Notes under the pieces: model-generated
The model's database searches: none
What the model was told of the DNA's origin: nothing
Seen by the model: the letters and a program-made list of their open reading frames with translations, nothing else
Translations under genes and position numbers: made by a program
Virus record (IMG/VR): IMGVR_UViG_3300021197_000993
Span: 1-64,000 of that record
Reading direction: 5' to 3' (one strand)
Length of the DNA stretch: 64,000 bases
From: a virus
In this document: positions 26,301 through 61,610 of the stretch, one piece after another
Layout: the number at the start of each line of letters is the position of its first letter
How positions within the stretch are numbered: the stretch's first letter is position 1

Positions 26301-26740
26301 CCGGATATATGATACAACTCGCGCTGTCCTGTGTTGTAGCCAACATTGTTGCTGATAAACGAACCTGCCGCTGTTGGATAATTGTTCGCGCTTGTTGCAA
26401 TAACAGATGTTTGGTTGGTGAGTTGAACCTTGAATGATGCTTTACCGGGGGCATCTACTGTCCCCATGCGTAATTCAAACAGCCCACTCTTGCTTGCAAT
26501 CACACCACCGCAATCGGGCGACACCCACGCTTCAACAGTGAAACTGCTTAGTGATTGGTTGTTGGCGTTTGCAAAGCGATGGCCGTCCCCATCTTGTAAT
26601 ATGGGCGCAGATGAGCGCGCAACGGCTCCGTTTAGTTCGCGCTTATGTCCTGTTTTGACAAAGTTGCCTTGTGGACAAACAATGCTATCGCTCACACCGT
26701 TGAAAAACAACGCGTGGCTTGTTTGTCCAATAACTGCCAT
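11375..26740 (-). CDS. giant tail/adhesion protein (5121 residues)
   Basis: This single uninterrupted frame fills 15.4 kb, about a quarter of the window. The start at ATG 26740 has GGGGAG seven bases upstream; the frame opens slightly earlier at a TTG that overlaps the preceding gene. Residues ~50-230 look like a LamG/concanavalin-type beta sandwich (FTVEAWVSPDCGG, then GEFNGEQVKLYVNGELLASH, then DFFIGGKGGEYRGYIETVHW), a carbohydrate- or surface-binding fold. The remainder is beta-rich and aromatic, with many Asn, Thr, Gly and Tyr. I saw no long internal repeats, no membrane helix and no signal peptide. Position between distal-tail and hub genes suggests a tail-tip or central-fibre protein used for adsorption. 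Function beyond that is inference. Confidence 0.8.
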   Translation of the reverse strand: MAVIGQTSHALFFNGVSDSIVCPQGNFVKTGHKRELNGAVARSSAPILQDGDGHRFANANNQSLSSFTVEAWVSPDCGGVIASKSGLFELRMGTVDAPGKASFKVQLTNQTSVIATSANNYPTAAGSFISNNVGYNTGQRELYHISGEFNGEQVKLYVNGELLASHKMNKKYSCNMNDQDFFIGGKGGEYRGYIETVHWKSDVSTLETRAKPCMLSNSTIGLWRFEEPVSVDETTFYATSNITAGDTTITIGSTACQTLYETVSGKSDTLATNYPLESLGNYQVANAAHSGGAQVISVAHTPFNLIINPTATDVLTGLPNGTPPERVRLKQINTNGTITVESIHLDFGVSSNTGSRGVLHSRTAFNSGNNFANDSSLVLVRSDLLIDSESGKPFQRLGTGSQAIDRTGAMVIDESQNEFHGFIYSRGIAVNTNAFAPSSWTIAERFKTGHAGRHVYSHRKGHPFLQMLPPIHEQEITRTIDGIADDVLVTFAGSYLGLKNVMPINSKVEISHTAFNARIMSIKTSATTNGIVRNGLASLDAHRDGVIAISVDSIEPFLLKGGGIGVSSTTDAQYTKHLTPETESRVAILEVSGLTAGYVEIHYNAVDLTGSKMGLSNPALLITKTVPDGGCLLDGNRVAAHIANAVGAGATIHSPGGVITASSQDIGSAQVAMKPHHLVGDNTGGISYETDLDESFLPSNYTPRVAGDESQKPPQGIGTTSHPSAYHKLHLQPMQRSASDPPVGEAPTHYQESTQFASQKGGAFEMFDIIDNDKEGDSYIFIVQPSKRERTMQLTRTTPATVDFNDNTYFTIEYIQTTARITSMQVNDSGAGRYLIMEGQGLMADIADQTVAYSGDGSPNSHIVKEIQPGAPVVSVTLGGVGQGAINTKPTWDPASLSRVGWNTRHDCAAIIQNIESSSSQTVVVAALNNAGITLATWGTYCFPATGRIYLENGASAEYASKTGTTFTFASGIVHTGSGKFLLPNGNETGSFANWVTQSGITAGQLVLLDPLFATSSICADGTTVNDRLFQSLGSVQHDYQLGTQYASTRALVEIPLFPQQFFENRNTGIFPGPDNSMKLHLDATMTAQAWNPSPVGRRAPNYPANDYEAFGQYQYRLSNDLPIRATVRRYDQQGTNRILYIGDGLLRIPKSNFNAAGTVKGVSTRRTRKLVLGNGEWAYYEYAGGSTITLSELDTHSSPDFFASLTVGSQIIVGVLPNNTSFPLAGDDDYASSAQEYRRPFYYDRGSVMTQGGNLDYGLRQYVSAVEFKAGPSANPHLPRIKSKNAKLDLLILITGQTFSFKGDIPKGHLPTNYSFAAVNEATGRKYVITYNSTTNATQLTINAHPLLDNTAPNVAAGDTLTLLGIYSTSATTFPIKLEDGIANATWNNPYCPGGLRYGDTVWMNMHYTNPHAIEGMFCKSRGVLNEYEVWSGFDGGKGSLGVEARDSLPLENFLIGDTCLESARNFVQHVNKTIELNWTELGHGTSAPVVAFLDPYLSTETHARVLLYDVEHDREFISFHDLHMQVQTSAATPTIEGLDVAAGFKTQRKDNATTSTTDAQTINSTSYNLIKDEGKSQYVESAYAHKSWWLMDESFMLTNNVALNRFNRKGRATQHTIQFGTETTQFGQGRVQQSTVDVDSAQTQHAETIDHDTSEAIIDNTTGHYQFSSTFFDTPEGTRVISAFLCLKGKRAVAHNIVDVGDSHLSKLPHWTDMDFVRRLSIDMGEIGLREGVTDIEAAAREVVRLINQGGALNGQSSQRRPSDQYAGEGERFDINRRAVSVGGIDTEEPTDATAAHHHADFATTGSTHDPAPFWNAQTAFTSFDRGSHMGYLRAHLGRVVEDANGNEGYSIVIHSTVPGATSRNFCAWLDNSKGQAEYKPQFLIGHGGRFRNFYCAPPEIAGENMHPAPMPIDKNGKPFAPITTLREYVALDEDSDEFFTNLHLGFNSNFNTSTQETPNSGTSTGRASNTGAMESFENSGQKFTIREGLQTGSNARARINFGGIVAAGVPGFAPDAGDWGFGEDGKDTGRFVSSIYGNYLEADDTYYSVYNSYVPSLQVNDASVGTQSLYGLKMVDHRGKSHILRYIYRRAGDSFSHKNSVMPNTIDEETLVYFNDRDIAQGGFTIGANMWGKGSDGTPFFYTGTTDHNWRGNKWRGVHTPNAGYAVTMDTAMANNTLGIHDASGYGYHNGGIWHQLPDVDDVLGWMGFPNSGLVWLAIPSSRSQYNNVGVVFSYTSRTQNGRGGPHTFFGVEGFGANSMAATWFDSQDKAGPTSVSSSRAPVIISPHLNQTTIVTDELIAAATAYAFTVDPNEGNQYFDCSHLRAPDGRTYGEIMGDNAQTAIEITKFNQDKEVIPLNKMFSVSLSPDWGLQSSIVEHATINASFSSGGQFGGLGDKVGSTMEEVGYLPHTLLTITTRYKGSNANTATPVLVDQTNNAIPIDNWQKHLRGDKFTRYEGDHITPSLEAATYELDPQTAGLAFPGGTAYDTYQIQMRDPALFTVLGRQYAWQLQHVDTGGSNLNYDTSTEFGGSTTIDGSWTPFKRMDIDEDTYIYCAALSSIDAPTDVAQDLLAWHHDDSKGDFKDKVIVNAILQRFKFVNDIQGLRLRANRRGKPLLYFRGAQDSIDHHVPLYFGGGFSGVVMDINDSSRVDYSAHNKHPYASGPTGSAGLQDIGEKMGAYALLDTTALFAMFPAAIITNQHRGEATPPFANQDAVLNPDIDGNTNTHTIPTTTYTNVNIAQPTPVVLRFAHPYARYTDSTNSVAYMIFGPGQAVPKHWYGEGVAIDVAKEPSAKWTAAFKKYCSLDGAMATTFNQGNESGYFLPNELSNGTLNGAANQFLPPADAYSANNVFPYTTFRHWEPSYGSPNSAFNQSISTEARYVSSHFFGASSAAQSAANEYGHPFSFYAAAVRFSSARVKSFALDKLIFHLDGGYTAGGSWFDNSVRKNAPHPITATLVNSVNATVQYIDRLGLNATMFRVGSQVLTDYDDNLDAVVPDDVFLIDATRCQNSEELGAVVAAAINTWPGRSNLKALGGSFLPSFQDAQRQDRYGWIDVGSLGAYTNEPHGLVSVGTALPMTLPENGWIRVSNGTKSYYGYYSHYDVAQGTFILGGNMRSGFKRLEEPAIGGTGDVSSVEGEGHKVFVWSKAGNLRWDNGFQNAVDGTRSTGTTSSGQMSNGPFDHYASTQVHFNGATDAIDRTRAVGAVGWHGERYSYFNSLNISDKVAAGLGAWHPMMGFTPYGAATACHNPQSLEWVLRLVSGSGAETTDNGEHVWEPKTNTHNATSLHQRHFVVVSYEGDLPIIAKAARNGQQTCGDMLQLKWGGTQGGTITAYHNERFNNDRYNAESNAGPHVEAMHDTTMTTPTNDNANSRLWTHAASTSLAQSETCLYPTGDLFFDKTENPNNAHYPNDNIFDSEVAKTENVGYDTYGTHRDTIYSYFKTRYAGRNFFAEHVVWKRMGGGNLTLPAQNARGLGSMPWQVHKVGSEYIRFGETIYGNVRFSFETTNAAMYPVIQAQELAHPALAEQYPYEVQNALNIPNEEMQFKDMVVVDDTGQEHILTGGSPLGVVIRDYKIVHDRENEGLAPALAGSGVAPNMKIQLPDHDEIPGNILVRAGFDRLQAYQHETIGSGGLQHPNQPTKQTIDAFNGQSDGHPRTEPFWEQDGYEHINQNPNSFPDSNKALQSENILETSYEPHDRALYFHITKMGYTYTEREPLRIVNNTMTLNRLTVASVGTNTITTKEAIVADIWKQDPTPDGRYFLSINGTIASFTDAPDGGTQFTGVAFAPDFTASEDDSIKPSFYIPAGSTRQFAARRLRDHAEVSGNSPDKPHTNWSTLSAGTSPATLVRAANKLTPMPLPRMGHHYVMPTMAMLPGHLAHPLYQRIYQANRACFGATDYDTSKTIANPLLWFSGTTAPNPPSDIHGDGFTLLTETKLRFDGYGIADDTAACNAAGGHRIQLEVGSANGANYNTQFHFPDPAEVGAYQIVIQPNLFSKQLMGNNENTVFASTDAPKEPGATNATVRTLTDQLFATVVGMKSRDLILSEATMADVRGCEIYLNEVILDIDPSTREQFTNIPTLGLSNPFGVNATSSGAFTRRSLPYHPNMFHRSTPGHTVTVPWWSVALASSTVFSSTSPWKGSQLYHPDDYYLFCRSTLGAVGTQTTMLGYPSHYLDVYTDYLTSLTPVANVEHADQGNNKLYVRNNNLFPVAGADYYAQYLVIVDDNGVEQTASYEDRGYISGVGANGPVVFNSVAAITSGFWTAAVQNATVRLKSKYNNLGAGEVYTNSKASVATRNLPQLLSGTRDTNSLHLPDAYLCLWHYNLGRPMTWFSDSQTDRATKNDPAVDKKAYNHAPEHFEMIHYHEFTYAMSDGPFKFRMKSPSNVDGSIADTYSVAALINQAGVDGKSRKYNLGAFWPGGHRFGAQMSSLSLYGTAAPGWRDKWDSNIIKQVSDADGLVITNGDVETITETILSKTAHKQAGWGYRVSLRQPYNRPRWAIKSNQGLRDSQTYYHFQAEGPFISSQNGTTRINQQSGSSNTTGTATTNPNYVGIIERQTNASALIGSDLKFQQVRYSDGRRMTKGFGCAVRNFRNPTTAIRKFHADLPAGHKAGTDVDDQRVNLALAQAHYMIDWWGNTTGEEVRRFPVRGFGIRPSWDPEDAYRATDRTKSAESMYSTITGMVFSEASVNFFDPATAKRVGDRGDGRGVRYPTYFNEDILQDVSEDMRPFGLVLSHHTSEPPFMGGFLRPSNVQLQSHEVPRGISAKLELAGDDGLLKREANVGTNVEKSNFNFMQEPIAKSKPRIGIDGTSVVENNGEMSPRYIIASTEATSVHTDRQVGQRFILAGGVSTANRAVDNLNLHTLNLSSAKQVMKFGTTHGIPPIGGTYIMEVSSDGENISDHHWGASSGITTNPYQTSNHDSTSYKTNTKDTTIKFLVRPVRVLDNQHIELFRDDTTHVLSATAAGRYGVFVYDAPNARAADGASSYMRNSNPTPSNPPYAPVYLFTISGSGASTSAPASVGPKIPGSEASDFTTLATQPVARMIVSNNTLQHFRGDASRRQSVNDGNESFVRLDYTVQPRYTQSLFAGDKLNTSNHSSEGDRTDNTGLGA

Positions 26741-26741
26741 C

Positions 26742-27905
26742 TTAACTCCCCACAATAAAATCAATTGGCATGAATGTCAAAGAGCCTTCGTAAACATTTT
26801 CACCAGCAATGTAGTTGAATGACATAGCAACCACTGTTCCAGCCATGCCTGTCTTCTTATCGGTTGGGTCAAACTTGACACCAACATCAAGGTTGTTTGC
26901 AAGCGCGTCTTGTTGATTTGCATTAGCGCGACCAGTTATCATCATGAGGTTGCGTTCAGTGTAATCGTCAGCGGCGGCTGTGCTGGTAATCAGTGAGTTG
27001 TAGGGGATTTGCACACCAATGATGTAGTCGGATGTTTGTTGCGTCAAAAGACTTGCATCTGCTTCAAGCATTGGGTCATTATCGGGTGTGTTGACTAACA
27101 CACCGGATGCACCAAAGAGGCTGGCGTTGCCAACATACGCGATGAGGTCTTGGAGTTTATCTCCCGCGCTACGACAAGACTTGGCTTGACCACCAGCAAA
27201 CACCTCAAACAACGGTGCTTTTGTAGCCAACCCTTTGCTGAAAAATGGTGTTTCGCTGTTGCCGCCAGCACCTTTGTCCACTTGAGTAAAGGTGAGTTTT
27301 GCGTTGTTTGTCAGTTCACCGTTGCTGGTGGTGATTGTGAACGCGCTACTGAAAGTTGTGCTTGTTGTGCTGACTTGTCGCGGGCTAAAGTTGGCGGCTT
27401 CACACGCTGTCTTAACAGCCGCCGCCAGTCCGTTATCAGTCGTGATGCCTTGAATACCAACAATCACGGTGGGCGGCACATTGATGTCGCTGTGGGATGC
27501 TGTGCTACTATCAAATTGGATTTTGATTGGGTCGCGCGTTGTGTTTTCACCTGTGTAGGTTGATTCAATTGAAAACGACTGACCGTTAAGGTCGCTCAAA
27601 GAAACTGATGGGCTACCCCCACTCAAATACGATTGGCGCGTGCCGCCGTCGCTGTTTGCTAATGCGCTAAAATCAACCGATGCTTTTGCCGCGATTGATT
27701 CAAACGCACTGGCCGCGCAGTCGTCATCAGCAAGAATAACATTGAACTTGAAGTCTGCTGTGACCATGTTGAGGTCAATACCGTAGCGTTCACCAAGAAC
27801 AGGAACAGGCATAACAGGAACGCTTCGCGTGATGTTCATGCTGTAATCGGTAGCGTCCAGCGTCAAGACTTGACCATCGTTGCGAATCAATCGTATTTTG
27901 GTCAA
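26742..27905 (-). CDS. distal tail structural protein
   Basis: This is a 387-residue protein between the tape measure and the giant protein, the usual place of a distal tail protein. It opens with a beta-hairpin (KIRLIRNDGQVLTLDATDY), has many short Thr/Ser-rich strands in the middle and ends with a further beta domain (VVAMSFNYIAGENVYEGSLT). A large central region (about 120-230) has the look of an inserted Ig-like or carbohydrate-binding domain. No catalytic motif is visible. It overlaps the tape-measure stop by four bases, and its stop is followed at once by the ribosome-binding site of the giant gene. Confidence 0.6.
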   Translation of the reverse strand: MTKIRLIRNDGQVLTLDATDYSMNITRSVPVMPVPVLGERYGIDLNMVTADFKFNVILADDDCAASAFESIAAKASVDFSALANSDGGTRQSYLSGGSPSVSLSDLNGQSFSIESTYTGENTTRDPIKIQFDSSTASHSDINVPPTVIVGIQGITTDNGLAAAVKTACEAANFSPRQVSTTSTTFSSAFTITTSNGELTNNAKLTFTQVDKGAGGNSETPFFSKGLATKAPLFEVFAGGQAKSCRSAGDKLQDLIAYVGNASLFGASGVLVNTPDNDPMLEADASLLTQQTSDYIIGVQIPYNSLITSTAAADDYTERNLMMITGRANANQQDALANNLDVGVKFDPTDKKTGMAGTVVAMSFNYIAGENVYEGSLTFMPIDFIVGS

Positions 27906-39555: not shown

Positions 39556-39559
<4 letters not shown>

Positions 39560-42500
39560 CCTATATCAAGTGAATTGCTCTCAACAACGATAACACCGTC
39601 GTCTTCAAGCGTCGCGCTTTCGCCTTGATTGGTTCGCAGTCGCTTGGTTTTCTTGGCTGTTGCTGGCTTCAACTCATCGTCGGCTCGCGCTTGAGGGTCA
39701 AAATCCGGCATAGTGTTGTCGCGGATATTCTGCGTTGGTCCTCGCGGAGACTCGTCGGGTGTCGCATAATCCATACCTAACCCCTGCACACCAGTGCTGG
39801 TGATTTTTTCTTTAGAGAGATGTTCCAGCCCGCGCTCAATCAATTCAAGTCCACGCTTGATAACTTCTTCTTCTTCTTCAAGAACCTTCTTCGGTTTTTT
39901 TACATGACCCGCGGGTGCTTCGGGTTGCACCTCATCATATTCCGGTTCTTCAACATCCTCTTCTTTCAACAACCAAGCCGCTTTTGAAATCCAATACGCT
40001 TCTTGGTCTTGCGCTAATCGCACAAGATACTCGTTGCCCCATACTGATGATTGCGGTTCTACATACCAAAGACCGTCTTGTTTGCGCGTTTTACAAATAA
40101 CTTCATCATCAAACGCAGTGAAGCGGATGGTGATGTTGCCTTTCTTCATAGATACCTGTTGAGGCACATGATGTTCACCCGACATGATAGCAAGAGTTTC
40201 TACGCTGTTCGCGGCAAACGGTTCGTTGTCGGTGATTTTCGCGGAGCGGATGCGGTAGACGGGGTGTTCTTTCTTTGATGATACACTCACACCTGTGCAA
40301 CGAACAGTAGCAAAATCGCCTACCTTCAACCCGCGTGGACCTTTCGCGCTACCTACATTCATGTAGTGTTCATCACCAACTTGTTGTGCGCGCTTACCGT
40401 AATGTTCGGGATGCATGAGTGGTCCGACACCAACACCATAGGTTGTGCCGGATGCTGACAAAACGATAACATCTACCATTTTCTCTTTGCTCAATAGCAC
40501 CCACTTAGGATGGCGCGATTCTCCTTTCATGTAAGTTGCATTAGCGTCGCGAAGAAGAATGTCAATGTTGTTTTCTTTTTGCAATCCTTCAATAGCGACT
40601 TGCAATCCTTCGTCGTCGCTACGCTTTGTGTTGATAGGTTCGGGCATTTTGATATGCTCACTGGATTCATATTGAGAGCGGAGATGGCGAATCCGGTCTT
40701 TGGTTGGCATATTATGTGTGTCTTCATCAGCAGTCTTGAGGAGGTCAAGAATCGTCATCACTCCATCATGAATAATCGCGTGAACCGTGAAGTCTTTCTC
40801 GTAAACTTTTTCCGCTTCCTCCAAAATAGCCTCATCCAACTTCACCTCTCCATCAATACCGTATGCGGTGATACCTTTTTTGTCTTTGGTTGCAATCACA
40901 TGTTCGCCTTGTGGGTAGAGTGAAATGACCCAATCGCCTGTAAATCCGCGCAAATGTTGCATGTCATCTAAATCAAAAATGCGATGCATAAACTTCACAG
41001 GTTGCGGTTTTCCATCATCCTTGATGAGCAATGTGTCATCAAGCGCGACATCAAGAAGGTGAGAAGAATAGGTGAAGATGCTTTCATCATTCGCGCCCAT
41101 CTCATCTTCTGCAAATGTTGTAGCCGCGTTGATACCTTGTCCCAACCGCATGTTGGTGTTTGCACCTTGATACGCTTGGTAATTGAAGTAATTCATGGGT
41201 TTTGATACATCCAGTTGAGGGAGGTCGGGATTTGCGTGCTTCATGTGCCGAATGTTCATCCTCAACATTTGAGGTGATGGTGCGTTGAAAGTGTGCAAAT
41301 CGTCTGTTTCAAACACAATTTTTCCGTCTCCCAAAAAGTGAGGTTGGTGAACAAACGGTGGAGAGCGAGTTCCTTCAATACCGTAGTTGAACTTTCCTTC
41401 ATGACAGGTATTGATAGGAGTTGCGTGAGCGTTGTTCATGTTGTAGCCACCCATGACGGTTTGCGGTTCGGGTTCAGTTGAACTTTCGTCAAGAAGTTGT
41501 GTGCCTGTTTTGTCGTGAAGAAGTGCCGCGATGTTTTCAAGCGAGTTTGGTTTGTTGAAGTTCATCATACGCTTCAACGATTTTGTATCCATCGCGCCTC
41601 GTTGTATTCCGAAGTTTCTCATGCGTTTGAAATCCATCGCAATGTCGCTACCTCGTTGAGTGGCTTTACCTGCATGTTTCAACACATTGACGATTGCCTC
41701 GCGTTCACGCTTCATGCTGATTGGTTTCATTTTTCTTTTACCCATAAGCACACTTTCACCACCGCTGGTGCATGAATCATCTGCTATGTCATGAAAGATG
41801 CCGCCATCATTGAATGCAAATCTGCTTCCTCCGCGCTTCAATCCTTGGCCTTGTAGTTGCTCATAAAGAATTGATTGTAGATTACCGCGAATAGGTTTAC
41901 CTTTCAAGTCGTGAGGATGATAACGAGCCATGAACGCTTTTTCAAAACCAACACCTTCTTGAGCGTCTGCGGCTTTTTTCACATTCTCCATCACTGCATC
42001 AAATATCTCAACATCCTCATCACTTACGCCGCTACCTTCACGCCGAGCGAGTTTGCTCGCGGCTTCGTGTCCTCTTGGTTGAACACCACCGAATTGCCTA
42101 TCAAGGGCTTTTTCAGCCATATCTGTTGAACCTTTGTGTTTCTCGCGAGAGACATGTAGATTCGCAAGGTTGTCTTTTTCATCATCACTAAGGTAGTCAA
42201 AGGGGATGTTTTGTCCACCGTAGAATATACCGTTCTCAAACACTTGACCGCGCGTGTCGGGGTCAAGCATAGCAATTTGTTCAGCAAGTTTCAGCGTGTA
42301 AGCAGTCGCGGCGTAGGCTTTGTCGTTGCCTTCGGTGAATACATTGGGGAATAATTTCTCAATCGCGGGGCGAATTGCTTTGAAGATTTTTGCAGTTGCG
42401 TTGACTGTTTGCACCTCATTGCGTAATCGTTTATCTTCGTTATTGAAAACAGCCTCACCACCATCTTCGGGTGGAGTAGCGCGACGAACTTGAGATAATT

Positions 42501-45500
42501 TTTGTTCAATCAATTCTTTGGTGTTGTTATCACCACTTTTTTCTGCGAAACGCATTGCTTTCGCCAACTGCGCTTTCATAATAGACGCGAGATACGACGG
42601 TGAAGGGGCAACAACAAGAGATGAAACTGCGGGTTCTTCTTCTGTTCCGTGTTGATGCAACGAAGAGAGAGGCACACCGTCGTCGTTGTCAAGTCTTTCC
42701 TTCATTTGGATAAACTGTTCAAGTTCGTTCGCGCGCTCTCCTCTTGTGTTTTCATCCTTAGCGTTGAGGTATTGCATATCAAGCGTTTTGAGTTCTTGCA
42801 ACAATGCTCGTCGCGTGCGTATGTTTGATGATTGAGTAGGAGGGAGTGAATACGGTTCACTCATTTTAAATTGATTTTGAATGTAATCATCAAGGTCCTC
42901 TTTGAAATAAATTGCAAGTTGAGACGGAGGTTCACGGTCGCGCACAATGTCATTTACCATATCCTTACCAGTCCGACCACCTTCACCGATAACATCCCTG
43001 TGATTCATTTGTTTTAGCGCGGAAAAACGGTCTTCGTGGTCTTCGCGCAACAAGTCTTCAAATTGCTTTTGGTCTGCTTCATCAAACTCATGGAGAGGTA
43101 GATGTGAACCATGCAAAAGAAAGTCAATGAGTAAACGGTCTATGTGAGGCATTGTTCCTTTCTCATATCCAAACTTTCGCGCTTCATCACTCTTTTTTTG
43201 GTCGTGATAACCCGGAGCGTGCCGAGCCTCGTAGAGTTTTTTACCGCCCTTTTTTTGTGAGCGAATGCGCTCTTTTCTCAACCCCAGCATAGGCGTGTCA
43301 AGAGCAACACGCGAACCACGCCTTCTTTTACCGTCAAGGCTCAAGAAACCTACAAAGTCATCCATGTCGCCGCTGTTCAAAAAATCACTGTGCGCCATGT
43401 AAAATGAGTGTAAACCCGCTGTGGATGGTGTTCTTGGTGAAGGCATATCCTTGATGTAATCCTCAAGTGCTTCTTTAGGTGTAGTCCCATCCATGTCCGA
43501 TACCACACCTTTTCCTTTAGAATCAAGTGCTTCTTCAAGCGAGAGGTTTTGTCGCGGCATGTCAAGTTGAACTGCTTTACCGCTCTTGAATTGCTCAATC
43601 AATTTTTCCGCGTCTTCATCATCGCGAGACTCCAACGCATTTTCTAAATCAAGAAGCAATGAACCGTCTACATCCTTCGCTGGGTCGTAAACATCTTTCT
43701 GTTCAACAGTTCTTTTTGAGCCGGTAGCGTCTCGCTCCGGACGCGAAGGTATCAAAAATGTGCGTTGTGATAACGGCGCGCGGAACACATTACCAAATCC
43801 TTCGTCGTAAGCGTTTTGCACATCACCTGTTTCACCACTGTTGTTCCCGCGGCGGCTACCAACACCCTGCATGACGATACCAAGCGGTGAGGGTTCAGCG
43901 AACTGTGGCTCTTCAAGCATGTCAAACTCATCTGCGGTGTTATGCGTGTGCGTGTATCCTTGAACACTTTCACGCAATAAATCACCAAACTCTTGTTGTC
44001 CGTAAGCAATCAGTGTGCGTTCAGCGATACGCTCCGACTCATCATCAGTAAAGAAGTTGTGAAGATTCAAACTGCGCAAATCGGGAGGTTTCTCTTTCAT
44101 GTGAATAGTATCACCATGCTCACCTCGCTTGATGTGCGGATAGCGACCACCGTCTTCAACAATTTCAGCATCGTGTTCATCAGCGTATCGTTTTGCTAAA
44201 TTGTTGAAGTTGACATATTCAACAGCGCGCTCAATGGTTTCGGGTGCTAATCCTTGCCAGTTGTTTTCTTTCAACTGCTCTTTCATTTTTTGACTTCGTT
44301 TTTCAATATCAGTCGCAATCGTTTCTTTGTATTTTTTAGTGTAATGATTGGGTAGCGTTTGGTTGTATCCGTTTCGCCCAGCCCCACCAGCGTAAAGAGT
44401 GTCAATCATGTTATCCATGAGATAAGCGTGGTTTGCCATGTAGCCGCGCATATCGCTACCATATTGTCGGTTGGCGAAAAATGAGTCATCAATTTTACCC
44501 TCGCTGTTTGTCCCACCGTTCGTGACCAGCATCCACTTCATGATGTTGTAGATTTGGCTATACGGGAGCATAGCGATACCTAAACGATAAGCGTCAATAC
44601 CAACGCGACCAAAATTGCGTTCACCTTCTTTCGGCACACGGCGTTGGTCATTGTATTTGTCAGCCATCTTTCTCAACCGTTGCACAGGAGATTCTTTTTC
44701 ATCCTCGTAAACTTGACGAGGCATACCATCATCTTTGAACAAAACTTTCATCACTTCGTCGCGAGGTATGCCTTCATTCTCCCAATTTTTGACGCGAATA
44801 TAATGATTGATGGCTTCCGGGTCTGTGAAAAACTTCTGCATTTCGGGGAACTTTTCAAGGTATGCGCGCTTGAAATCGTCGTAGCCGATGTTGAAGAGAC
44901 GCATCATGGTCGCGTTATTGCCGACCCAATCGGAAAACATGTGTGGTTCTTTTGCTTTCGGATGCATACCTTTCGCGGTCTTCACCATTGCTTTATGCAA
45001 TCGTTCAGCATTCTCACCTTTACCTCCAAACAAATATCGCGTAAGATGTTGAAAGACAGGCATCTCACCATACGATGCTTTTCCTTCGCGTTGAGGGAAC
45101 AGATTTGCCGCATCAAGTTTAGAATGAGAGCCAACAACATCACCATCTCGTTCCGGGTTTTGCATCGTGTGCATACGCCAACCAACATACTTGCGAACAA
45201 TTTTGTCAAGGGGGAGTTCGTCTTCATCCTTAAACGCGACTTTGATTGCATTAAGAAGTTCCTTTTCATTGAATACGGGAATCTGTTTGTAATGACGAGC
45301 GGGTGCGCGCTCTTGGAGGGTATCTCCACGCGGAGATGAAAAAATATCCTTCGTTGCTGATGTGGATTGCGACATCACTGTGGAGGGTTTGAGATATTCT
45401 TCGGCCTCATTCTTCAACAGAATACGCGTGAATCCGTTGTTTTCTAAGTTGTTTGCACTTAGCAAAACATTGACCGCTTCTTCGCGTGCGTCTTCTTTGT

Positions 45501-45564
45501 TGATGACGGCATTGATGAACTCATTCATCACACGGCGATGATATTGACCAGCGTCTTCGCGCAC
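39556..45564 (-). CDS. 2002-residue head-region protein with a ligase-like C-terminal region
   Basis: This is a very large helical protein between small head genes and the protease. Residues 1-~1500 are charged, with no family I recognise. Residues ~1535-1830 resemble a degenerate ATP-dependent DNA ligase core: GFTGDWVISLYPQGEHV (near motif I), FTVHAIIHDGVMTILDLL (motifs III-IIIa), a DRIRHLRSQYE helix, WVLLSKEKMVDVIVL (motif V) and a following OB-fold-like strand set (GLKVGDFATVRCTGVSVS). The nucleotide-accepting Lys of KxDG is not evident, so ligase activity is doubtful. A late AAWLLKEED resembles the AWxLLK tag. The GTG start at 45564 follows GAGGTGA. It could be an injected or inner-head protein; that is inference. 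Confidence 0.6.
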
Positions 45565-49878: not shown

Positions 49879-50020
49879 CGCGATTCACCTTTCTCTCATT
49901 CCAAGCCATTATTTGCGGACTACCGTTTTTCTCCCAACACTTTTTACAAAATCCAAAAGGATATACCTTATCTGTTGTGTAGCAACAAGTGTGATAGTGA
50001 TACTCAACAGATTGGGTCAT
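49868..50020 (-). CDS. 50-residue Cys/His zinc-binding-type protein
   Basis: This was read directly from the gap. ATG 50020 overlaps the preceding TAA (TAATG), and the stop lies within the next gene's ribosome-binding region. The product contains YHYHTCCYTTDKV, then FGFCKKCWEKNG and MAWNERKVNRVEN. Two Cys plus His upstream and CKKC downstream suggest one zinc site. It belongs to the run of small Cys-containing genes between terminase and portal. Family unknown. Confidence 0.6.
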   Translation of the reverse strand: MTQSVEYHYHTCCYTTDKVYPFGFCKKCWEKNGSPQIMAWNERKVNRVEN

Positions 50021-50433
50021 TAACAATTCCACCTTTTCAACGCCGCGCCTTTCGGAGTCATCTTACCACCTTTGCTGGTTGGACCTTTAACGCCACTCAT
50101 TCGCGCGCAAAAAGACTTTCTACGCTTGGCTTTTTTACCGCCCGGTTTTAGTTTGCTTGGTTTTGTCGTGACCGGAGGTTTGAGGTTTGCACCACTCTTT
50201 CGCTTTGCCGCGGCGCGACCTTTCGCGTTCAGTCCACCTTTGCGACTGTGTTTGTTTGGATTGTATCCGTGAAACGGCTTGCTCTTTTTCTTCGCTTTCA
50301 ACACCGTGTTTGCAATGTCAAACGGTGAGCAACATGTGCAAAACGACACCTCTTTCGCGATGTCGTCGTCGTTCATCATTGCTAATTCTTCTGCTGTTAT
50401 TGGTTCATGCATTATGTATTCGTATTCTGTCAT
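50020..50433 (-). CDS. conserved basic viral protein (DUF6321-like)
   Basis: This is a 137-residue protein. The C-terminal 80 residues, SRKGGLNAKGRAAAKRKSG, then KRRKSFCARMSGVKGP, then PKGAALKRWNC, match from memory a domain found in many marine phages (DUF6321-type) whose function is unknown. It is strongly basic with Cys at fixed points. The N-terminal ~55 residues are acidic with a CTCC pair and then PFDIANTVLKAKKKSKPFHG, which loosely resembles the AWxLLK...KK tag. It may be a DNA-binding head protein. It lies with four other tiny genes between terminase and portal. Confidence 0.65.
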   Translation of the reverse strand: MTEYEYIMHEPITAEELAMMNDDDIAKEVSFCTCCSPFDIANTVLKAKKKSKPFHGYNPNKHSRKGGLNAKGRAAAKRKSGANLKPPVTTKPSKLKPGGKKAKRRKSFCARMSGVKGPTSKGGKMTPKGAALKRWNC

Positions 50434-50434
50434 G

Positions 50435-50890
50435 TTATCCCCTCGTCAAATGATGATACCCGCATACGCATGGGTATGTTGAAATCGGTCGTCCCGATTG
50501 GCGCGATTGATAGTCTCTATCGCGTTCCGCATGTGCGGGTGATTCGTATTTGTTCTTCTCCGGAGTAGGGCATGGTGGATAATTACCGCGACCCTTCATG
50601 AACACCCACGCCTCGTCCATCCCTTTAACGATGGTGGGCTTTCCGCCTACGCCCTGTTTCTTGCTACGCTTGCGTTTCGTTGCCGCGCGCTTTTGACCTG
50701 CTGACATAGAACCGCTGGTCTTCGGAGTCTTGCTTGATACCTTGACGGAGGGGCGACACTTGGGGTATCCTTTGCTACCCTTCTTTGCCTTAGAACGCCC
50801 ACAGGGAGGATGCTTACCATCCTTACCTGTGCGCGAAACATCAACCCACTTTTCCTTGAACCAACGATTCAAGTTTTTCTCAACCGTCAT
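50435..50890 (-). CDS. conserved basic/Cys protein (DUF5872-like) with internal AWVFMK motif
   Basis: This is a 151-residue protein with its start fixed at ATG 50890 by an ATGA overlap. The N-terminal ~75 residues (NRWFKEKWVDVSR, then PPCGRSKAKKGSKGYPKCRP, then MSAGQKRAATKRKR) match from memory a family widespread in viruses (DUF5872-like). Residues 91-99, MDEAWVFMK, are the shared tag, here internal as if it began a second fused unit. The end carries PPCPTPEKNKYESP and STYPCVCGYHHLTRG, a Cys/His metal-site pattern. Function is unknown; a basic, metal-stabilised virion protein is plausible. Confidence 0.65.
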   Translation of the reverse strand: MTVEKNLNRWFKEKWVDVSRTGKDGKHPPCGRSKAKKGSKGYPKCRPSVKVSSKTPKTSGSMSAGQKRAATKRKRSKKQGVGGKPTIVKGMDEAWVFMKGRGNYPPCPTPEKNKYESPAHAERDRDYQSRQSGRPISTYPCVCGYHHLTRG

Positions 50891-51090
50891 TTTCCAGCCC
50901 ACGCATCACAAATATATTCTTTGTTGCAAGTAAAATCATACCACTTGCAGTAGCCCGTTTGAGGGTCTTCTGTTGCTGAATCGTCCCACGCCTTGCAGTT
51001 GCCACACTTCTTCGGACCTGTGGCCTTGCGATAATTCGGCGCGTCTTTCTTGGCTTTCATCAAAGCCCACGCTTCTTCAAGAGGAATCAT
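50887..51090 (-). CDS. 67-residue Cys protein with N-terminal AWALMK tag
   Basis: ATG 51090 follows GGGAGG and overlaps the previous stop as ATGA. The protein opens MIPLEEAWALMKAKKDAPNY, the clearest N-terminal copy of the tag. The stretch EEAWALMKAKKDAP aligns with DDAFEMIRKKKDAP in the protein at 56192-57463. The rest, CGNCKAWDD, GYCKWYDFTCN and YICDAWAGK, has five Cys in a pattern like small high-potential iron-sulfur-type proteins reported in phages, and could also bind zinc. Its job is unknown. Confidence 0.65.
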   Translation of the reverse strand: MIPLEEAWALMKAKKDAPNYRKATGPKKCGNCKAWDDSATEDPQTGYCKWYDFTCNKEYICDAWAGK

Positions 51091-51307: not shown

Positions 51308-52708
51308 TCAATCTAACAACCCCTCCATTATTTCATCCAAGTCCACAATGCGCTCACGGAACTCCGTGGTGGCCCAATGAGCCAACGCGAGAGCAATAGC
51401 AAAGTCATCGTGCCTACCAATACTGTCAAGCCGACCTTTCTTGCTCATACCAAACATAAGCAACTCTCGTTCAAGTTCCGACATCATCGTTCGTGAACGG
51501 TCATCACCCCACGGCAATCGCATCTGCTCATTTTCAAAGCGCAACACCAAACCCATGAGAAGAGACTCACGGCGTTGGCGTGTGGAGATGAATGTTTTGA
51601 TAGGGAGGTCTGTATCTGCGCGTAGTTCAGTAGCGAACACACGCTGAAAGTTGTTGGCTTCAAGTTCAATAACATCGGGATTAAACTTCGCGTTGAGTCT
51701 TTGAATCTCCATTATCTGTGTTCGGAAGTCCATATTCTTGCGACGAACCGCGTGAACCAATTCAAGCAGTTCGGGGTTGGTTGATGGGCGACGAAGCACC
51801 ACCATGACAGTATAGTCAGCCGCGCGGTCCGAAGAAATAGCAGGGTCCCAACCGATGAAGTATTGGTCATCGGGGTCGCCTACTTCGCGTTCAATCAGTT
51901 TGAGTGTGTTGTCTTTTGCGGCTTGCAGAATGGTTGAAGGGAACAAACTGCTCACATCGTCCATTGGTTCGCACAAGTATTCACGAGCAAATGCGATGGC
52001 TGGCATATCATTGCGACGCGCATCAAGAGAATCTAAATCCCAACGCTCCGGCCAAAGAGCCTCACCTTTGGCGTTGATAGCAGGGTAGGTTTCAACGAGA
52101 TAACCCTCCCTACTCTCCAACTCCGTGTAAAGGTCAGTTGGTGTAAACGGTGTCCCGACAATCATCAATTTGGATGTGTGGTGAAGTGTAGGAACAAGAA
52201 CCTCGTAGAACCATGAAGCAACGCGAGCGAGTTCAGTATCAGTCGTTCCCCACAGAATGTCGTCGCAAAGGATGAGGTCGGGGTGAATACCACGGATAGC
52301 ACCACCAACTGACTTCGCGCTAATGTTGGAGCCGTTGCTAAAACCGAAGAATGTCTTTGACCAAGAATCTGCTTTCTTCATTTTCGCGAGGAACGGCACT
52401 CCATCAATCAAGTCATTGAGTGTGCGCATGTGGTGAATGGACTGATGAAGACTGTGTGAAATTAACACGGCTTTGGTCTTTGGGTTAAACGCTGTTTTCC
52501 ACAGCATGTAGCCAAGAAAGAGCGTTGATTTACCGTGGTCGCGAGCCGCTTTGACACAATATCGTTTGCGTTTTTCAAGGTTGTTATACCAGTCTTCGTG
52601 ATGATGTGATAATTGAAAACCGAGTATCTCTTCAAAAAAGAATCTAAAATCGCGCTTCGCTACCTCAAAGTCAATCTCTTCAATTGCTTCAAGTGATAGG
52701 GATTGCAC
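51308..52708 (-). CDS. terL: terminase large subunit
   Basis: This is the DNA-packaging motor. The ATPase half has Walker A AARDHGKST at 54-62, Walker B LILCDDI at 145-151 and coupling motif VGTPFTPTD near 184-192. The nuclease half has the RNase H-like acidic residues D288 (FIGWDPAISSD), E350 (VIELEANNF) and D434 or D435 (GRHDDFAIAL). At 466 residues it is complete. It starts with GTG at 52708, preceded by GGTGATGAAGT, the same leader as the 2002-residue gene. It is read just after the unknown gene at 52715 and before the small Cys-protein cluster. A headful or cos mechanism cannot be told apart here. Confidence 0.93.
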   Translation of the reverse strand: MQSLSLEAIEEIDFEVAKRDFRFFFEEILGFQLSHHHEDWYNNLEKRKRYCVKAARDHGKSTLFLGYMLWKTAFNPKTKAVLISHSLHQSIHHMRTLNDLIDGVPFLAKMKKADSWSKTFFGFSNGSNISAKSVGGAIRGIHPDLILCDDILWGTTDTELARVASWFYEVLVPTLHHTSKLMIVGTPFTPTDLYTELESREGYLVETYPAINAKGEALWPERWDLDSLDARRNDMPAIAFAREYLCEPMDDVSSLFPSTILQAAKDNTLKLIEREVGDPDDQYFIGWDPAISSDRAADYTVMVVLRRPSTNPELLELVHAVRRKNMDFRTQIMEIQRLNAKFNPDVIELEANNFQRVFATELRADTDLPIKTFISTRQRRESLLMGLVLRFENEQMRLPWGDDRSRTMMSELERELLMFGMSKKGRLDSIGRHDDFAIALALAHWATTEFRERIVDLDEIMEGLLD

Positions 52709-58165: not shown

Positions 58166-58495
58166 ATGAGAAAGCGGCTTGGTCGTGCGCCAAAAATCGC
58201 GGGTGTTCCTCTCACTATACAGACTACCAAGAGCCTTTCACGCGCGGCTATGGACATTCTCGCCAACAATAAAGCGTCGTTATCCGAGCGTGAACGAAGA
58301 ATGAACATTTGCCGTCAATGTCCGGAACGGAATCACGACCGATGCGGCCTATGCGGTTGCTTCATCAAGACCAAAACAATTCTCAATAATAGCGAGTGTC
58401 CTGTTGGTAAATGGTCAACCTTGTTGTCCGAGACGACGGTAGACGATACCAGTCGCGCTGAAACAAACGAAAAGCGCGCCGATAATCCAACTTAA
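58166..58495 (+). CDS. zinc-ribbon protein on the opposite strand to the late operon
   Basis: This is a 109-residue + strand frame inside the - strand late region. Its core, ICRQCPERNHDRCGLCGCF, then ECPVGKW, is a pattern I know from many phage genomes: four to six Cys making one or two zinc sites and ending CPxGKW. That makes this strand, rather than the antisense extension of the small terminase, the coding one. The N-terminus is basic (MRKRLGRAPK). Only 37 bases separate it from the divergent start at 58128, and its end overlaps the convergent gene at 58415 by 81 bases. It may have its own promoter. Function unknown. Confidence 0.55.
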   Translation: MRKRLGRAPKIAGVPLTIQTTKSLSRAAMDILANNKASLSERERRMNICRQCPERNHDRCGLCGCFIKTKTILNNSECPVGKWSTLLSETTVDDTSRAETNEKRADNPT

Positions 58496-58648
58496 GTCAG
58501 TTGAAGTCATTTTAGGTCCGGAAAAAACCAAAATGAGGAAACAACCGAGCGTCAACGCGATAAGTTGCACCATAATCATGTCAACAACGACTGATTTGCG
58601 CAAATTGGTCATGTCGCTCAATGCGCCATAGAGACTTGTCATATCCAT
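58415..58648 (-). CDS. small two-helix membrane protein
   Basis: This is a 77-residue protein with two hydrophobic helices (MIMVQLIALTLGCFLILVFS and LSWIIGALFVCFSATGIVY), joined by a short polar loop and flanked by basic residues (RRLGQQG). It belongs to the membrane module with 60121-61610. Two helices and small size would also fit a holin. It overlaps the + gene at 58166-58495 over its last 81 bases. The family is unknown. Confidence 0.55.
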   Translation of the reverse strand: MDMTSLYGALSDMTNLRKSVVVDMIMVQLIALTLGCFLILVFSGPKMTSTDLSWIIGALFVCFSATGIVYRRLGQQG

Positions 58649-58649
58649 T

Positions 58650-59222
58650 TCAGCGACCTCCTACAAGACCACGCGCCAGCGCACCGATGCCACCACCGAC
58701 ATTTTGCATCATACCGGGGTCTGCGAGCGCACCATCCAGCATGGTTTGCATTGTGCTTTGATTCGCTATGGCTACCATCTGCTGAAATTGCATACTCATT
58801 TGCTGAACATTGTTTGAAGCCGTGTTCAACATTTGTGTTTGGCTCATGGTCACGCTATCAGCGGTCGGCATACCTTGAACGCCACTAAAATCAAACTTGT
58901 AGCCGTCTCCGTCTTCAATCAAGCGCGCATTTGCCAAAAGACTACTCATTGAAACAGTCATCAAGTTGCTCAACAATGCAATAAGCATGTTCATGTTCGC
59001 GCCGTTATTATCCGAAAGCCACCTGTCAATCATCGGATTAGAGGTTATCATTGATGAAAGAATCTCCATTTCAGTAGGTGGTGGAGGTGGCGCATACGGA
59101 TTGTATCCACCAGCCGCACCATAGCCCGCACCAGCGGGGATTTGTTGCTGTCCATTCGGTAAACCGAGGTTCAATGTTCCCGTATTTTGCACAGGTTGTT
59201 GGTTATTTGACCACCATGCCAT
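58650..59222 (-). CDS. 190-residue Gln/Met-rich protein of unknown function
   Basis: The N-terminal 50 residues are Gly/Pro/Gln/Asn-rich and probably disordered (GYGAAGGYNPYAPPPPP). Residues ~55-110 are hydrophobic, amphipathic helices (MNMLIALLSNLMTVSMSSLL). The end is a Met/Gln helix (QMSMQFQQMVAIANQSTMQT) and a Gly-rich tip. It may associate with membranes through the Met-rich helix. It lies between two membrane-module genes. No domain recognised. Confidence 0.5.
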   Translation of the reverse strand: MAWWSNNQQPVQNTGTLNLGLPNGQQQIPAGAGYGAAGGYNPYAPPPPPTEMEILSSMITSNPMIDRWLSDNNGANMNMLIALLSNLMTVSMSSLLANARLIEDGDGYKFDFSGVQGMPTADSVTMSQTQMLNTASNNVQQMSMQFQQMVAIANQSTMQTMLDGALADPGMMQNVGGGIGALARGLVGGR

Positions 59223-59231
59223 AATACCACC

Positions 59232-60116
59232 TCACGCGCTACCCTCATTTTGTTGTTGCGGTAGAGGGAGAGGCGCACTTTGTTGCTGTAATTGGTGCAT
59301 CGCGAGTGCGTCATGAAGCAATTTTGTGTTGTTCCCTGCTTGAAATTGACGCATATCAAAGACAATCATAACCAAATCGTTCATTCCTGTTGCGGAATTG
59401 GTAAAATGAGTGATAGGGATGTTGTCTTGTTTCAACATCGCGAAGAATTGTTCGTATTTTGCAAGTATTGGCGGTGTGTTATCTCTCTTTTTGATGCTAT
59501 TTACAGGAACAGCAACAACAGAAACACCCTTTTTCAACTTGGCTTTCAGTGTTCCTCCACTCGCTTCTTGCTCCGCTTCTTCTTCTCTTTCCCATTTACA
59601 AAGCAAATGATAGAGGTGTAGGTGTTCGGGACAGTATGTTCCGCGCATTTTGCGTCCGCTGGTCACATTTTCTCGCGCTACGAAGGCTTCAACCTCTCCT
59701 GTGACCGGATTTTTGAAGTAAATGTCCCATAATGACTGTCCAGTTTCCTCATCAATGATTTGTTCGTAGATATTACCAGCCATCCGCAATAAATGTTCAA
59801 CATCTGCACCGTCAATGACACAACGCATGGTATTGGTGTTATAGCGGTATTTTCCCCCGAATAACCACCTTCGCGGAGAGAACATGCTTCTTTTTGTCGG
59901 TTTTAAGAGGCGATATGCCTGTTTTATGTCCTTTCTTCGCGCTTTTTTGGGGTTTGGGTGCTGTGAAGGGTAGAAGTTGACCTGCGGAACCTCAATATGT
60001 TCACTCACATTGCTCATTGCGGCTTGCGCGGATGCCTGTTGTTGCATCTGTGCAAGGCTCATTTGGGTCTGTGCGGCAAGCCTAAGTAGGTCATTTTGGG
60101 GTTTATTTCCGAGCAT
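59232..60116 (-). CDS. 294-residue protein in the GTPase module with an AYRLLK motif
   Basis: The first ~40 residues are a Gln/Ala-rich helix (QTQMSLAQMQQQASAQAAMS). Residues 64-72, IKQAYRLLK, resemble the shared tag and are followed by a basic region (PTKRSMFSPRRW). The centre (~95-180) looks like a folded domain (MRCVIDGADVEHLLRMAGNI, then YCPEHLHLYHLLCKW) with Cys and His that could bind a metal. The C-terminal ~90 residues are alpha/beta (ILAKYEQFFAMLKQDNIPIT, then DLVMIVFDMRQFQAG) and then Gln/Pro-rich. It lies directly downstream of the GTPase, so a partner role is possible. Family unknown. Confidence 0.5.
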   Translation of the reverse strand: MLGNKPQNDLLRLAAQTQMSLAQMQQQASAQAAMSNVSEHIEVPQVNFYPSQHPNPKKARRKDIKQAYRLLKPTKRSMFSPRRWLFGGKYRYNTNTMRCVIDGADVEHLLRMAGNIYEQIIDEETGQSLWDIYFKNPVTGEVEAFVARENVTSGRKMRGTYCPEHLHLYHLLCKWEREEEAEQEASGGTLKAKLKKGVSVVAVPVNSIKKRDNTPPILAKYEQFFAMLKQDNIPITHFTNSATGMNDLVMIVFDMRQFQAGNNTKLLHDALAMHQLQQQSAPLPLPQQQNEGSA

Positions 60117-60120
60117 TTTA

Positions 60121-60843
60121 TCACCAATTCAACATTTCAATCATCGTTTTTTCAACATTCCAGCCGATTTTGGTCGCCATCATGCTAACGCGACACGGAA
60201 TACCTGCTTTTTGGAGTCTTCGCATGGCTGGGCGGTGCAAATTGAACACTTTATGCTCGCGTAAACGCCCCGATTGCCACAAAATGTTCGCATTTTCGTC
60301 CCACCACTCGTCTGCTTTGTTCGCGACAAGCCATATTTGCTTCGGAGAGTAGCGTTTCCCGCGTAAACGCGACTTGAGAGAGCGATAGTTCCACCTTTTT
60401 TCAATCAAAGCGTCCACAAGATACTCAAAACCGCCTACTGCGTCAATGACCTGCGCTCCGTTTCCTTTCAAAACACGCGTATCGGTCATGAAGACAGCAA
60501 TTTCTACCTGCCTATCAACCATATCGTCAATCCACAGGTTCCAAAATCGTTGTTGACCGCCAATATCGGACGAATGAACAACTCTTTTCTCACCTTGCCA
60601 ACGGATTCGTTTGCGTGTTGCGTTCGGAAGCACATATCCTCCTCCTAAGAGTCGTTTCGCGTGCATTGTGCGCTCTTCAATGTCATCCATTTCACCGGGA
60701 GTGCGCATAAAGAGGTCAAGAGTTGTTTTACCGACCTGTGTTGGTCCATAAACACCTATTCTGCGCGGTTTGAGGAAGTTATAGAGTTCCCGTCCGTAAA
60801 CAACCGCACCCATCAGCGCGCTACCTGCCATCGTCGCGACCAT
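60121..60843 (-). CDS. membrane-anchored Arf-like small GTPase
   Basis: This is a 240-residue protein starting at ATG 60843 in a TAATG overlap. The N-terminus (MVATMAGSALMGAVVYG) is a likely membrane anchor. G motifs: G1 GPTQVGKT at 33-40, G3 DIGGQ at 93-97 (the Arf/Galpha form with GGQ), G4 NKAD at 175-178, and a G5-like stretch SMMATKIGWNVE near 220-231. A G2 Thr may lie in NATRKR near 76. The order and spacing are those of Ras-like GTPases, with an inserted helical segment between G3 and G4. GTP binding is well supported. Its partners and job are unknown. Neighbours are membrane proteins, which suggests action at the host membrane. Confidence 0.78.
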   Translation of the reverse strand: MVATMAGSALMGAVVYGRELYNFLKPRRIGVYGPTQVGKTTLDLFMRTPGEMDDIEERTMHAKRLLGGGYVLPNATRKRIRWQGEKRVVHSSDIGGQQRFWNLWIDDMVDRQVEIAVFMTDTRVLKGNGAQVIDAVGGFEYLVDALIEKRWNYRSLKSRLRGKRYSPKQIWLVANKADEWWDENANILWQSGRLREHKVFNLHRPAMRRLQKAGIPCRVSMMATKIGWNVEKTMIEMLNW

Positions 60844-61079
60844 TATGACACCCATCCGCGCACTTTGTTGTAAAACCATTCAATGGTGTTCTCCCAAATG
60901 CTCACATCGGAATGCAATTCAAAAAAAGACACGCTCAAAGCAGTAGCAAAACCTGTGATGATACAATACACCAATGCTTTACCCTTCTCGTAGTAGGTAT
61001 CAAGAGTGTTTTGAGTGTGCAAAGCCCGCAAAGTGGCCTCCGTCGCGTCATCGCTCGGAGTTTTGAAAAGCCAACCCAC
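60843..61079 (-). CDS. 78-residue membrane protein next to the GTPase
   Basis: The product is a basic and acidic N-terminal helix (DATEATLRALHTQNTLDTYY), one hydrophobic segment (ALVYCIITGFATALSVSFFE) and an aromatic amphipathic C-terminus (WENTIEWFYNKVRGWVS). One membrane pass is likely. Its stop overlaps the start of the GTPase (TAATG), so the two are translated together and may form a complex. No family known. Confidence 0.55.
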   Translation of the reverse strand: MGWLFKTPSDDATEATLRALHTQNTLDTYYEKGKALVYCIITGFATALSVSFFELHSDVSIWENTIEWFYNKVRGWVS

Positions 61080-61085
61080 GCAAAA

Positions 61086-61610
61086 TCACTCCTTTTTCTT
61101 AGCGTAAGTTCCATCAGTGTTGCGTTTGCGCGTATCTCCGCCCAATTTCATTGGTTTTTTGTGATTCGCTTTGTGTTGAGGTGCTTCGGGTTCAATCTCA
61201 CCGTTCATCAGCCCAAGATATTGCTGGACTTCGGGGTCTTTCTCCAATTCCTCCATCTGTTTTGCGAAGACAACCTCTTGTTTTTTAATCTCCATCTCCA
61301 TTTGCGCTTGAGCAAAACGCATTTGTTGGTTTTGCATTTGACGCGTCATGTTGCGTTGCATGTTTGAAACAACAGCGCGCTGGTCCATACCGTCTTGCGC
61401 CAGCATTTTGTAGATGAAATACGCCATACCTTGCAAAGTAAACGCGCCCATCGTGTAAGTGATAGCATTCGTGTAGGTGTCGGGTGATGTCAACCACAAC
61501 CCTGCGTCAAATACCGCGATTGCGCATCCAACGAGTATGCTGACGAATGAAATCAGTCCCAGCACTCGTAATTCGTCTTTGTTTTGGGGGGTTTGTTGTT
61601 GCATCAGCAT
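61086..61610 (-). CDS. multi-pass membrane protein with cytoplasmic coiled coil
   Basis: This is a 174-residue protein, first gene after the AT-rich intergenic region. ATG 61610 follows AAGGAGGATT, the strongest ribosome-binding site in this part. Two or three hydrophobic segments lie at ~17-75 (VLGLISFVSILVGCAIAVFD, then TYTMGAFTLQGMAYFIYKML). A long Met/Gln/Arg coiled coil follows (RNMTRQMQNQQMRFAQAQME and beyond), and then a basic tail (NHKKPMKLGGDTRKRN). The topology suggests a membrane scaffold with a cytoplasmic arm. It probably works with the adjacent small membrane protein and GTPase. No family recognised. Confidence 0.6.
   Translation of the reverse strand: MLMQQQTPQNKDELRVLGLISFVSILVGCAIAVFDAGLWLTSPDTYTNAITYTMGAFTLQGMAYFIYKMLAQDGMDQRAVVSNMQRNMTRQMQNQQMRFAQAQMEMEIKKQEVVFAKQMEELEKDPEVQQYLGLMNGEIEPEAPQHKANHKKPMKLGGDTRKRNTDGTYAKKKE

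Follow-up and report, generated by a model that had tools for sequence, protein, structure and literature searches.

What does a tailed virus of archaea do with an Arf-like GTPase flanked by membrane proteins? The question is raised by a stretch of 64,000 bases (the window) out of the 68,810-base virus record IMGVR_UViG_3300021197_000993, in which a GTPase gene, D, stands in a row of genes designated B to H. A preliminary description made from the sequence alone proposed that D is the centre of a viral membrane module, and all of the genes that it named were found where it had placed them. Here, we show that D is a Ras-superfamily small GTPase on the Arf/Rag side, that it is a core gene of these viruses under strong selection, and that the order of its neighbours is conserved far beyond chance in the window's clade (clade 1) and in a second one. 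The module – whose function in assembly, entry or release we infer – suggests that these viruses come equipped with a device of their own to organise or reshape the membrane of the host.

The motifs first seen in the window protein (GPTQVGKT, DIGGQ, NKAD and the G5-like MATKIGWN) are present, and the G1 (GxxxxGK[ST]), G3 (DxxG), G4 (NKxD) and G5 (SAK-type) motifs occur in order at positions conserved across the D family. Motifs were counted on distinct cores, 146 from clade 1 and 107 from a second clade (clade 2, whose genes are marked with a prime). NKAD is found in all 146 clade-1 cores and M[AS]TxxGW in all except one, and D' has GxxxxGKT, DIGGE, NKxD (in 108/108 sequences, a set that includes the same proteins with alternative starts) and a canonical G5, VSAK or ISAK. 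The clade-1 G3 is D-x-[GA]-G followed by Q in 94 cores (the GGQ-type of Arf), E in 43, D in 8 and H in 1; in clade 2 the last residue is E in 107/107, and the GGQ-type is found in none. The catalytic glutamine is thus replaced in 52/146 and 107/107 cores, respectively. An acidic residue at this position would agree with a P-loop protein for another nucleotide, or an inactive one, as would the finding that no scanned member passed a Pfam cut-off shown in the output; however, this alternative is highly improbable, given the guanine-specificity motif in every clade-1 core and clade-2 sequence, the VSAK or ISAK of clade 2, and a Ras-type fold. The ratio of nonsynonymous to synonymous substitution for D is 0.03-0.07 against eight relatives (eight were used per gene, and seven for B), with several synonymous distances saturated or failed.

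Searched by itself, the window protein gave no match in Pfam, in PDB sequences (phmmer) or in annotated phages (tblastn), and NCBIfam also led nowhere, so its assignment came only from family-wide scans and the fold. Among 47 members of the family there are weak Pfam matches to Roc (12), Arf (11) and RagA (4), and TIGR00231 (small_GTP) matches 28, weakly; the 11 matches to Arf (PF00025) have a best E of 0.021 and do not reach its curated cut-off. For six members no PHROG match was better than E 0.005, and the weak ones of window D were not seen in the five others. RecA was rejected as an identity, its PDB profile matches being P-loop matches only, and an NCBIfam dehydrogenase match (6/47 members, best E 4.3e-6) has no evident bearing.

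An AlphaFold2 model of D built from 47 sequences (predicted local distance difference test score 75.4, predicted template modelling score 0.74) has the strand and helix order of Ras, and is weakest, within the domain, over the P-loop and switch I. Foldseek returned 988 PDB chains at E <= 0.001, with Rab and Rho in the top rows, and the best VIA-align match is Arl10B (Z 14.0, root-mean-square deviation 2.7, 160 aligned), with Arl8b (13.9), LokiRagO (13.1), ARL1 (13.0), and Arf1 and Asgard Gerd ArfR1 (12.8) also near the top; because rows within 1 Z are ties, Arf and Rag are not separated for D. The best 50 structural matches in BFVD are nearly all giant-virus proteins, mostly of the Ras superfamily or with another G domain. 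A profile of seven viral D sequences matches GTPases in 19 of 58 genomes of the class of G061, a genome labelled 'Asgard group archaeon'; the match in G061 itself is a viral contig, which leaves 18 further genomes (best cellular E 5e-10), and the two matched proteins scanned, of five read, are both Pfam Arf above cut-off. Motifs, profiles and fold thus bear out the Arf-like GTPase of the preliminary description, and place D among Ras-superfamily small GTPases rather than in a non-GTPase P-loop family.

The N-terminal hydrophobic anchor that had been claimed for D is borne out in part: the helix is present in the model, but it is only moderately hydrophobic, and 12/80 members pass a hydropathy cut-off of 1.4 in a 19-residue window. 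Its median Eisenberg hydrophobicity is 0.47 in clade 1 and 0.70 in clade 2, with a moment of about 0.2, and as modelled it likely resembles an anchor more than the amphipathic helix of Arf.

The gene order B-C-D-E-F-G-H is constant in 80/80 clade-1 loci from IMG/VR, contig ends aside. By tblastn, B was found in 78 of the 80, C in 79, F in 76, and D, E, G and H in all; the two misses of B and the one of C are at contig ends, and the four loci with no F match have an F-like open reading frame (ORF) of 213-218 residues in its place. No E was seen apart from D: 76/80 E loci include D, and in the remaining four the contig ends no more than 112 bases from E. Among 46 records fetched by the capsid gene (out of 80 capsid loci, those left out being mostly short contigs), D is present in 16, which are exactly those whose sequence extends 23 kb or more upstream of that gene. 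This line was set after the distances were seen: in the positives the spacing between capsid gene and D is ~21-24 kb, with the module upstream of the terminase region, and D is missing from four records with 20.2-22.7 kb of upstream room. It is also present in 28/28 large records; since these were fetched by D, the figure speaks for a single copy per record and not for how widespread the gene is.

Clade 2 was traced from two distant relatives (L292 and L293) found in metagenome-assembled genomes (MAGs) containing clade-1 contigs, and its loci were drawn from the best 80 of 188 and the best 80 of 208 relatives, two overlapping sets. Its capsid protein is 42% identical to that of the window by profile alignment, and D' is 31-35% identical to window D. 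B'-C'-D'-E'-F' occur in this order within 4 kb in 117/129 loci, and the other 12 are cut short by a contig end at most 675 bases from D', in the direction of the missing gene. The synteny implied by a module is upheld in both clades. Three of the 12 loci (L408, L418 and L329) have 291-675 bases beyond D' with no recognised E' but with a different small frame; the contigs of L418 and L329 break off in the apparent start of E'. In some of the clade-2 loci (L295-L421) 291-946 bases separate C' from D'; these stretches and the small frames after D' are perhaps inserted genes. The site of the module differs from that in clade 1, and D' starts 1.8-4.2 kb after the capsid-gene match begins.

When every clade-1 family was compared with every clade-2 family, profile against profile, the E values were 5e-35 for D-D', 7e-9 for E-E' and 3e-6 for F-F', and none of the unlike pairs, which served as controls, was better than 0.0017. 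G is present in 6/6 clade-1 and 0/13 clade-2 large records. Because D, E and F are homologous, B and C match in layout, and G is absent from clade 2, the shared unit is B-C-D-E-F; the two-helix membrane protein G, which had been counted as part of the module, is a clade-1 neighbour but falls outside the unit. The absence of G also bears on whether the locus controls lysis, with B, C and G acting as holins and D timing their opening. Small one- and two-helix membrane proteins do adjoin the switch, and no lysis gene was recognised among the window ORFs scanned; yet besides the lack of G in clade 2, no holin family was matched in the Pfam and PHROG scans, and the module adjoins head genes rather than forming a separate lysis block. 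We consider lysis control quite unlikely. A role in entry, in which the module would be packaged in the virion and act on the membrane of the next host, is very unlikely: its neighbours are structural genes and there is a weak match (E 0.028) between F' and a PHROG for structural proteins of the virion, but membrane-anchored proteins are unusual in tailed virions, and a virion would offer no source of GTP.

In E, residues C99, C162, H165, H167 and H170 are invariant in 42 clade-1 sequences and a cysteine is present at position 104 in 35/42, and E' has C-x2-C in 120/120 and GTYC-x2-H in 119/120 sequences. We infer that E may be a regulator or effector of a membrane-tethered switch, and a part for it resembling that of a GTPase-activating protein would be in keeping with the replacement of the catalytic glutamine in 52/146 clade-1 and 107/107 clade-2 cores.

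We tentatively favour a reading – to which we give somewhat less than an even chance – in which B-C-D-E-F form a virus-encoded, membrane-anchored GTP-switch module that acts late to mark and deform the host membrane for head assembly or release. D would be located at the inner side of the host's membrane, next to B and C, and in its GTP-bound form would recruit or hold E and F; E, or a B/C complex, would help to switch D off, because an acidic residue replaces the catalytic glutamine in many members. The module would probably be made late, together with the head genes, and its site beside these genes in both clades points to a late phase, with assembly at the membrane or release through it. 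The switch would then mark and deform a patch of membrane where heads assemble or leave, as ArvA drives vesiculation in haloarchaea. According to PMC10927574, Haloferax volcanii ArvA is an Arf-like GTPase with an N-terminal helix that drives vesicle formation, and vesicle numbers fall upon loss of ArvB and rise upon loss of the zinc-ribbon protein ArvC. The stronger version, in which an ocean archaeal virus lineage has its own Arf-type membrane-remodelling system – a GTPase, a regulator of zinc type and membrane partners specific to it, all passed on together – is in our view doubtful; if true, it would be the first such system in a prokaryote virus, bending the host membrane for assembly or vesicle-like release.

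Several observations weigh against a membrane-deforming switch. Its support is computational, and the D helix is not strongly amphipathic, in contrast to the helices described for Arf and for ArvA. No homology is detectable between B and B' or between C and C', which agree only in place, size and membrane layout, and E and F are without known fold or function in family scans; a structure search with E likewise reached no known fold, the best Foldseek E being 1.3 and the best Z 3.2. No Pfam domain of ArvB or ArvC (DUF2073/DUF2072) was found among window B-H, 42 E members and one clade-2 set of B', C', E' and F', and the viral module is therefore not filed under ArvA. Moreover, the position beside head genes equally fits a structural role with no membrane remodelling.

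D could instead be a spatial organiser, a membrane-tethered switch that, in the manner of MglA or of the beta subunit of the signal-recognition receptor, fixes the place on the membrane where the prohead or packaging machine sits, without vesiculation. In the receptor beta subunit, too, a hydrophobic helix at the N terminus precedes a small GTPase domain; the weak Pfam matches obtained with D' include SRPRB (E 0.0022), and the block is next to the terminase region in clade 1 and next to the capsid gene in clade 2. However, no roadblock- or longin-like partner was recognised in Pfam scans of B-H and E members or in the fold search with the E model, and there is no other sign of heads docking at a membrane in these viruses. 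We regard a spatial organiser as unlikely, if worth keeping in view, and retain the membrane-deforming switch as the preferred reading.

The features of the locus are collected in the table. The reported coupling of D to the single-pass membrane gene C is confirmed, with a one-base overlap of stop and start (TAATG) in the window, and the end of C and the start of D are only a few bases apart in most clade-1 loci. The preferred start of D has a further in-frame ATG upstream at 60879. As a separate observation, the GTPase match in genome G050 (24362-25078) has a single in-frame TGA within an otherwise intact gene. B had been called a multi-pass membrane protein with a coiled coil; the long charged helix stands, and it is preceded by one strong and one weaker hydrophobic segment as judged by hydropathy and inspection. 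F is probably helical, judging from its sequence. H, with a likely start at ATG 58128 by homology to relatives, is a candidate small terminase or regulator.

Table. Genes and motifs of the GTPase locus, with the terminase gene as a landmark (window positions).
Feature	Position	Strand	Basis or remark
Terminase large subunit	51308..52708	-	Pfam Terminase_6N and 6C above cut-off; context for the module
H, protein with Cys/His motifs and helix-turn-helix	57460..58308	-	HTH_20 in 24/30 members, best E 3.2e-9
G, 77-residue two-helix membrane protein	58415..58648	-	Neighbour in the window's clade only
F, 190-residue protein, low-complexity N-terminus	58650..59222	-	Sequence inspection
E, 294-residue protein with Cys/His cluster, signature GRxxRGTYCPEH	59232..60116	-	Cluster invariant in 42 clade-1 sequences; homologous to E' by profile comparison
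D, Arf/Rag-like small GTPase, 240 residues	60121..60843	-	G motifs, AlphaFold2 model, VIA-align, TIGR00231; preferred start ATG 60843
D, G5-like MATKIGWN	60157..60180	-	Canonical VSAK here in clade 2
D, G4 NKAD	60310..60321	-	146/146 distinct clade-1 cores
D, G3 DIGGQ	60553..60567	-	Last residue varies across family
D, G1 (P-loop) GPTQVGKT	60724..60747	-	Sequence motif
D N-terminal helix (residues 2-24), hydrophobic; likely a membrane anchor	60772..60840	-	Helix in AlphaFold2 model
C, 78-residue single-pass membrane protein	60843..61079	-	Hydropathy; stop overlaps D start
B, 174-residue membrane protein	61086..61610	-	Hydrophobic hairpin and long charged helix; hydropathy, inspection

The window codes for a terminase, portal, prohead protease, SU10-like capsid protein and tail tube, as well as a group II (thermosome-type) chaperonin, and the closest named viruses for its capsid and portal are haloarchaeal Druskaviridae, with a capsid identity of 33-34%. 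Magroviruses (order Magrovirales) have genomes of 90-110 kb, a family B polymerase, a chaperonin and a Druskaviridae-related capsid, and are tied to Marine Group II archaea (PMC10768690, PMC12999244); the host of the window virus is taken from the same two papers, via the magrovirus link. The chosen large relatives span 92-118 kb, apart from one of 185 kb. A family B DNA polymerase is encoded in 15/15 large clade-1 relatives and not in the window record, which is a fragment, and a Cpn60/TCP1 chaperonin is present in 28/29 records from both clades. MCM, sought as a magrovirus marker, was above cut-off in 0/15 relatives, at odds with the published exemplar of one family, which has it; the label is therefore limited to 'magrovirus-type', and by these shared traits the virus is placed as a magrovirus-type archaeal tailed virus and no further. 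No D was found in HVTV-2 and vir335, haloarchaeal and methanogen relatives.

Some further features of these records were observed. In G122 (the 184,733-base record of L305) chaperonin and GTPase are each present twice, ~90 kb apart, and because both are doubled the record is probably an assembly dimer. Some contigs of these viruses (L122, L123, L124, genome G062) belong to MAGs that carry the labels Cytophagaceae, Asgard group archaeon and Maricaulis, which is likely misbinning, and contigs of both clades occur together in a single MAG. The window record has three very large ORFs, at 11375-26764 (-), 39556-45564 (-) and 61733 to record position ~68602 (L208), of 5129, 2002 and 2289 residues, respectively. 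Two small proteins adjoining the terminase gene (50020-50902, minus strand) have DUF6321 and DUF5872 domains, and a short N-terminal peptide of the AW-x-LLK type (e.g. MNAFETAWRLLK and MSPMEKAWRLLK) is shared by otherwise unlike proteins, namely two window ORFs, L210 and L211.

The preliminary description knew of no system of this type. No earlier description of a small GTPase in magroviruses or other prokaryote viruses was found in a limited literature search, which left several key magrovirus papers outside; an analogue, ArvABC (PMC10927574), does exist and had not been named. The family described in PMC10768690 is stated there to have no cultured member, and assembly, entry and exit of uncultured marine archaeal tailed viruses are not known from culture. 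A conserved GTP-switch module offers a concrete handle on them, as a small gene set open to expression and testing. It also brings into prokaryotic virology the Arf-like membrane switches, which are usually considered in the context of eukaryotes, Asgard archaea and the vesicles of haloarchaea.

The module can be compared with several known systems. Giant viruses of eukaryotes also encode Ras-superfamily GTPases, but their Rab and Ras genes are eukaryote-like single genes, whereas here the GTPase belongs to an order-conserved module of archaeal tailed viruses. The MglA/MglB polarity switch of Myxococcus is, as here, a prokaryotic Ras-like switch with a neighbouring regulator, although MglA is without an anchor helix and no roadblock partner is recognised in the viral module. 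The signal-recognition receptor beta subunit shares the layout of D, but no receptor alpha partner is seen here and the Pfam matches are only weak. Arf/Arl and Rag GTPases, including those of Asgard archaea, resemble D in fold, in the order of G motifs and in the GGQ-type G3 of most clade-1 members, and differ in that D is below the Pfam Arf cut-off, the window protein lacks a glycine at position 2, and the glutamine position is often acidic. Compared by layout rather than sequence, the viral module differs from ArvABC in being virus-encoded, beside virion genes and with membrane-protein partners. Nevertheless, as described in PMC10927574, ArvABC shares with the viral module an Arf-like GTPase with an N-terminal helix, operon partners and one zinc protein, and is the nearest precedent in archaea for membrane action by a small GTPase.

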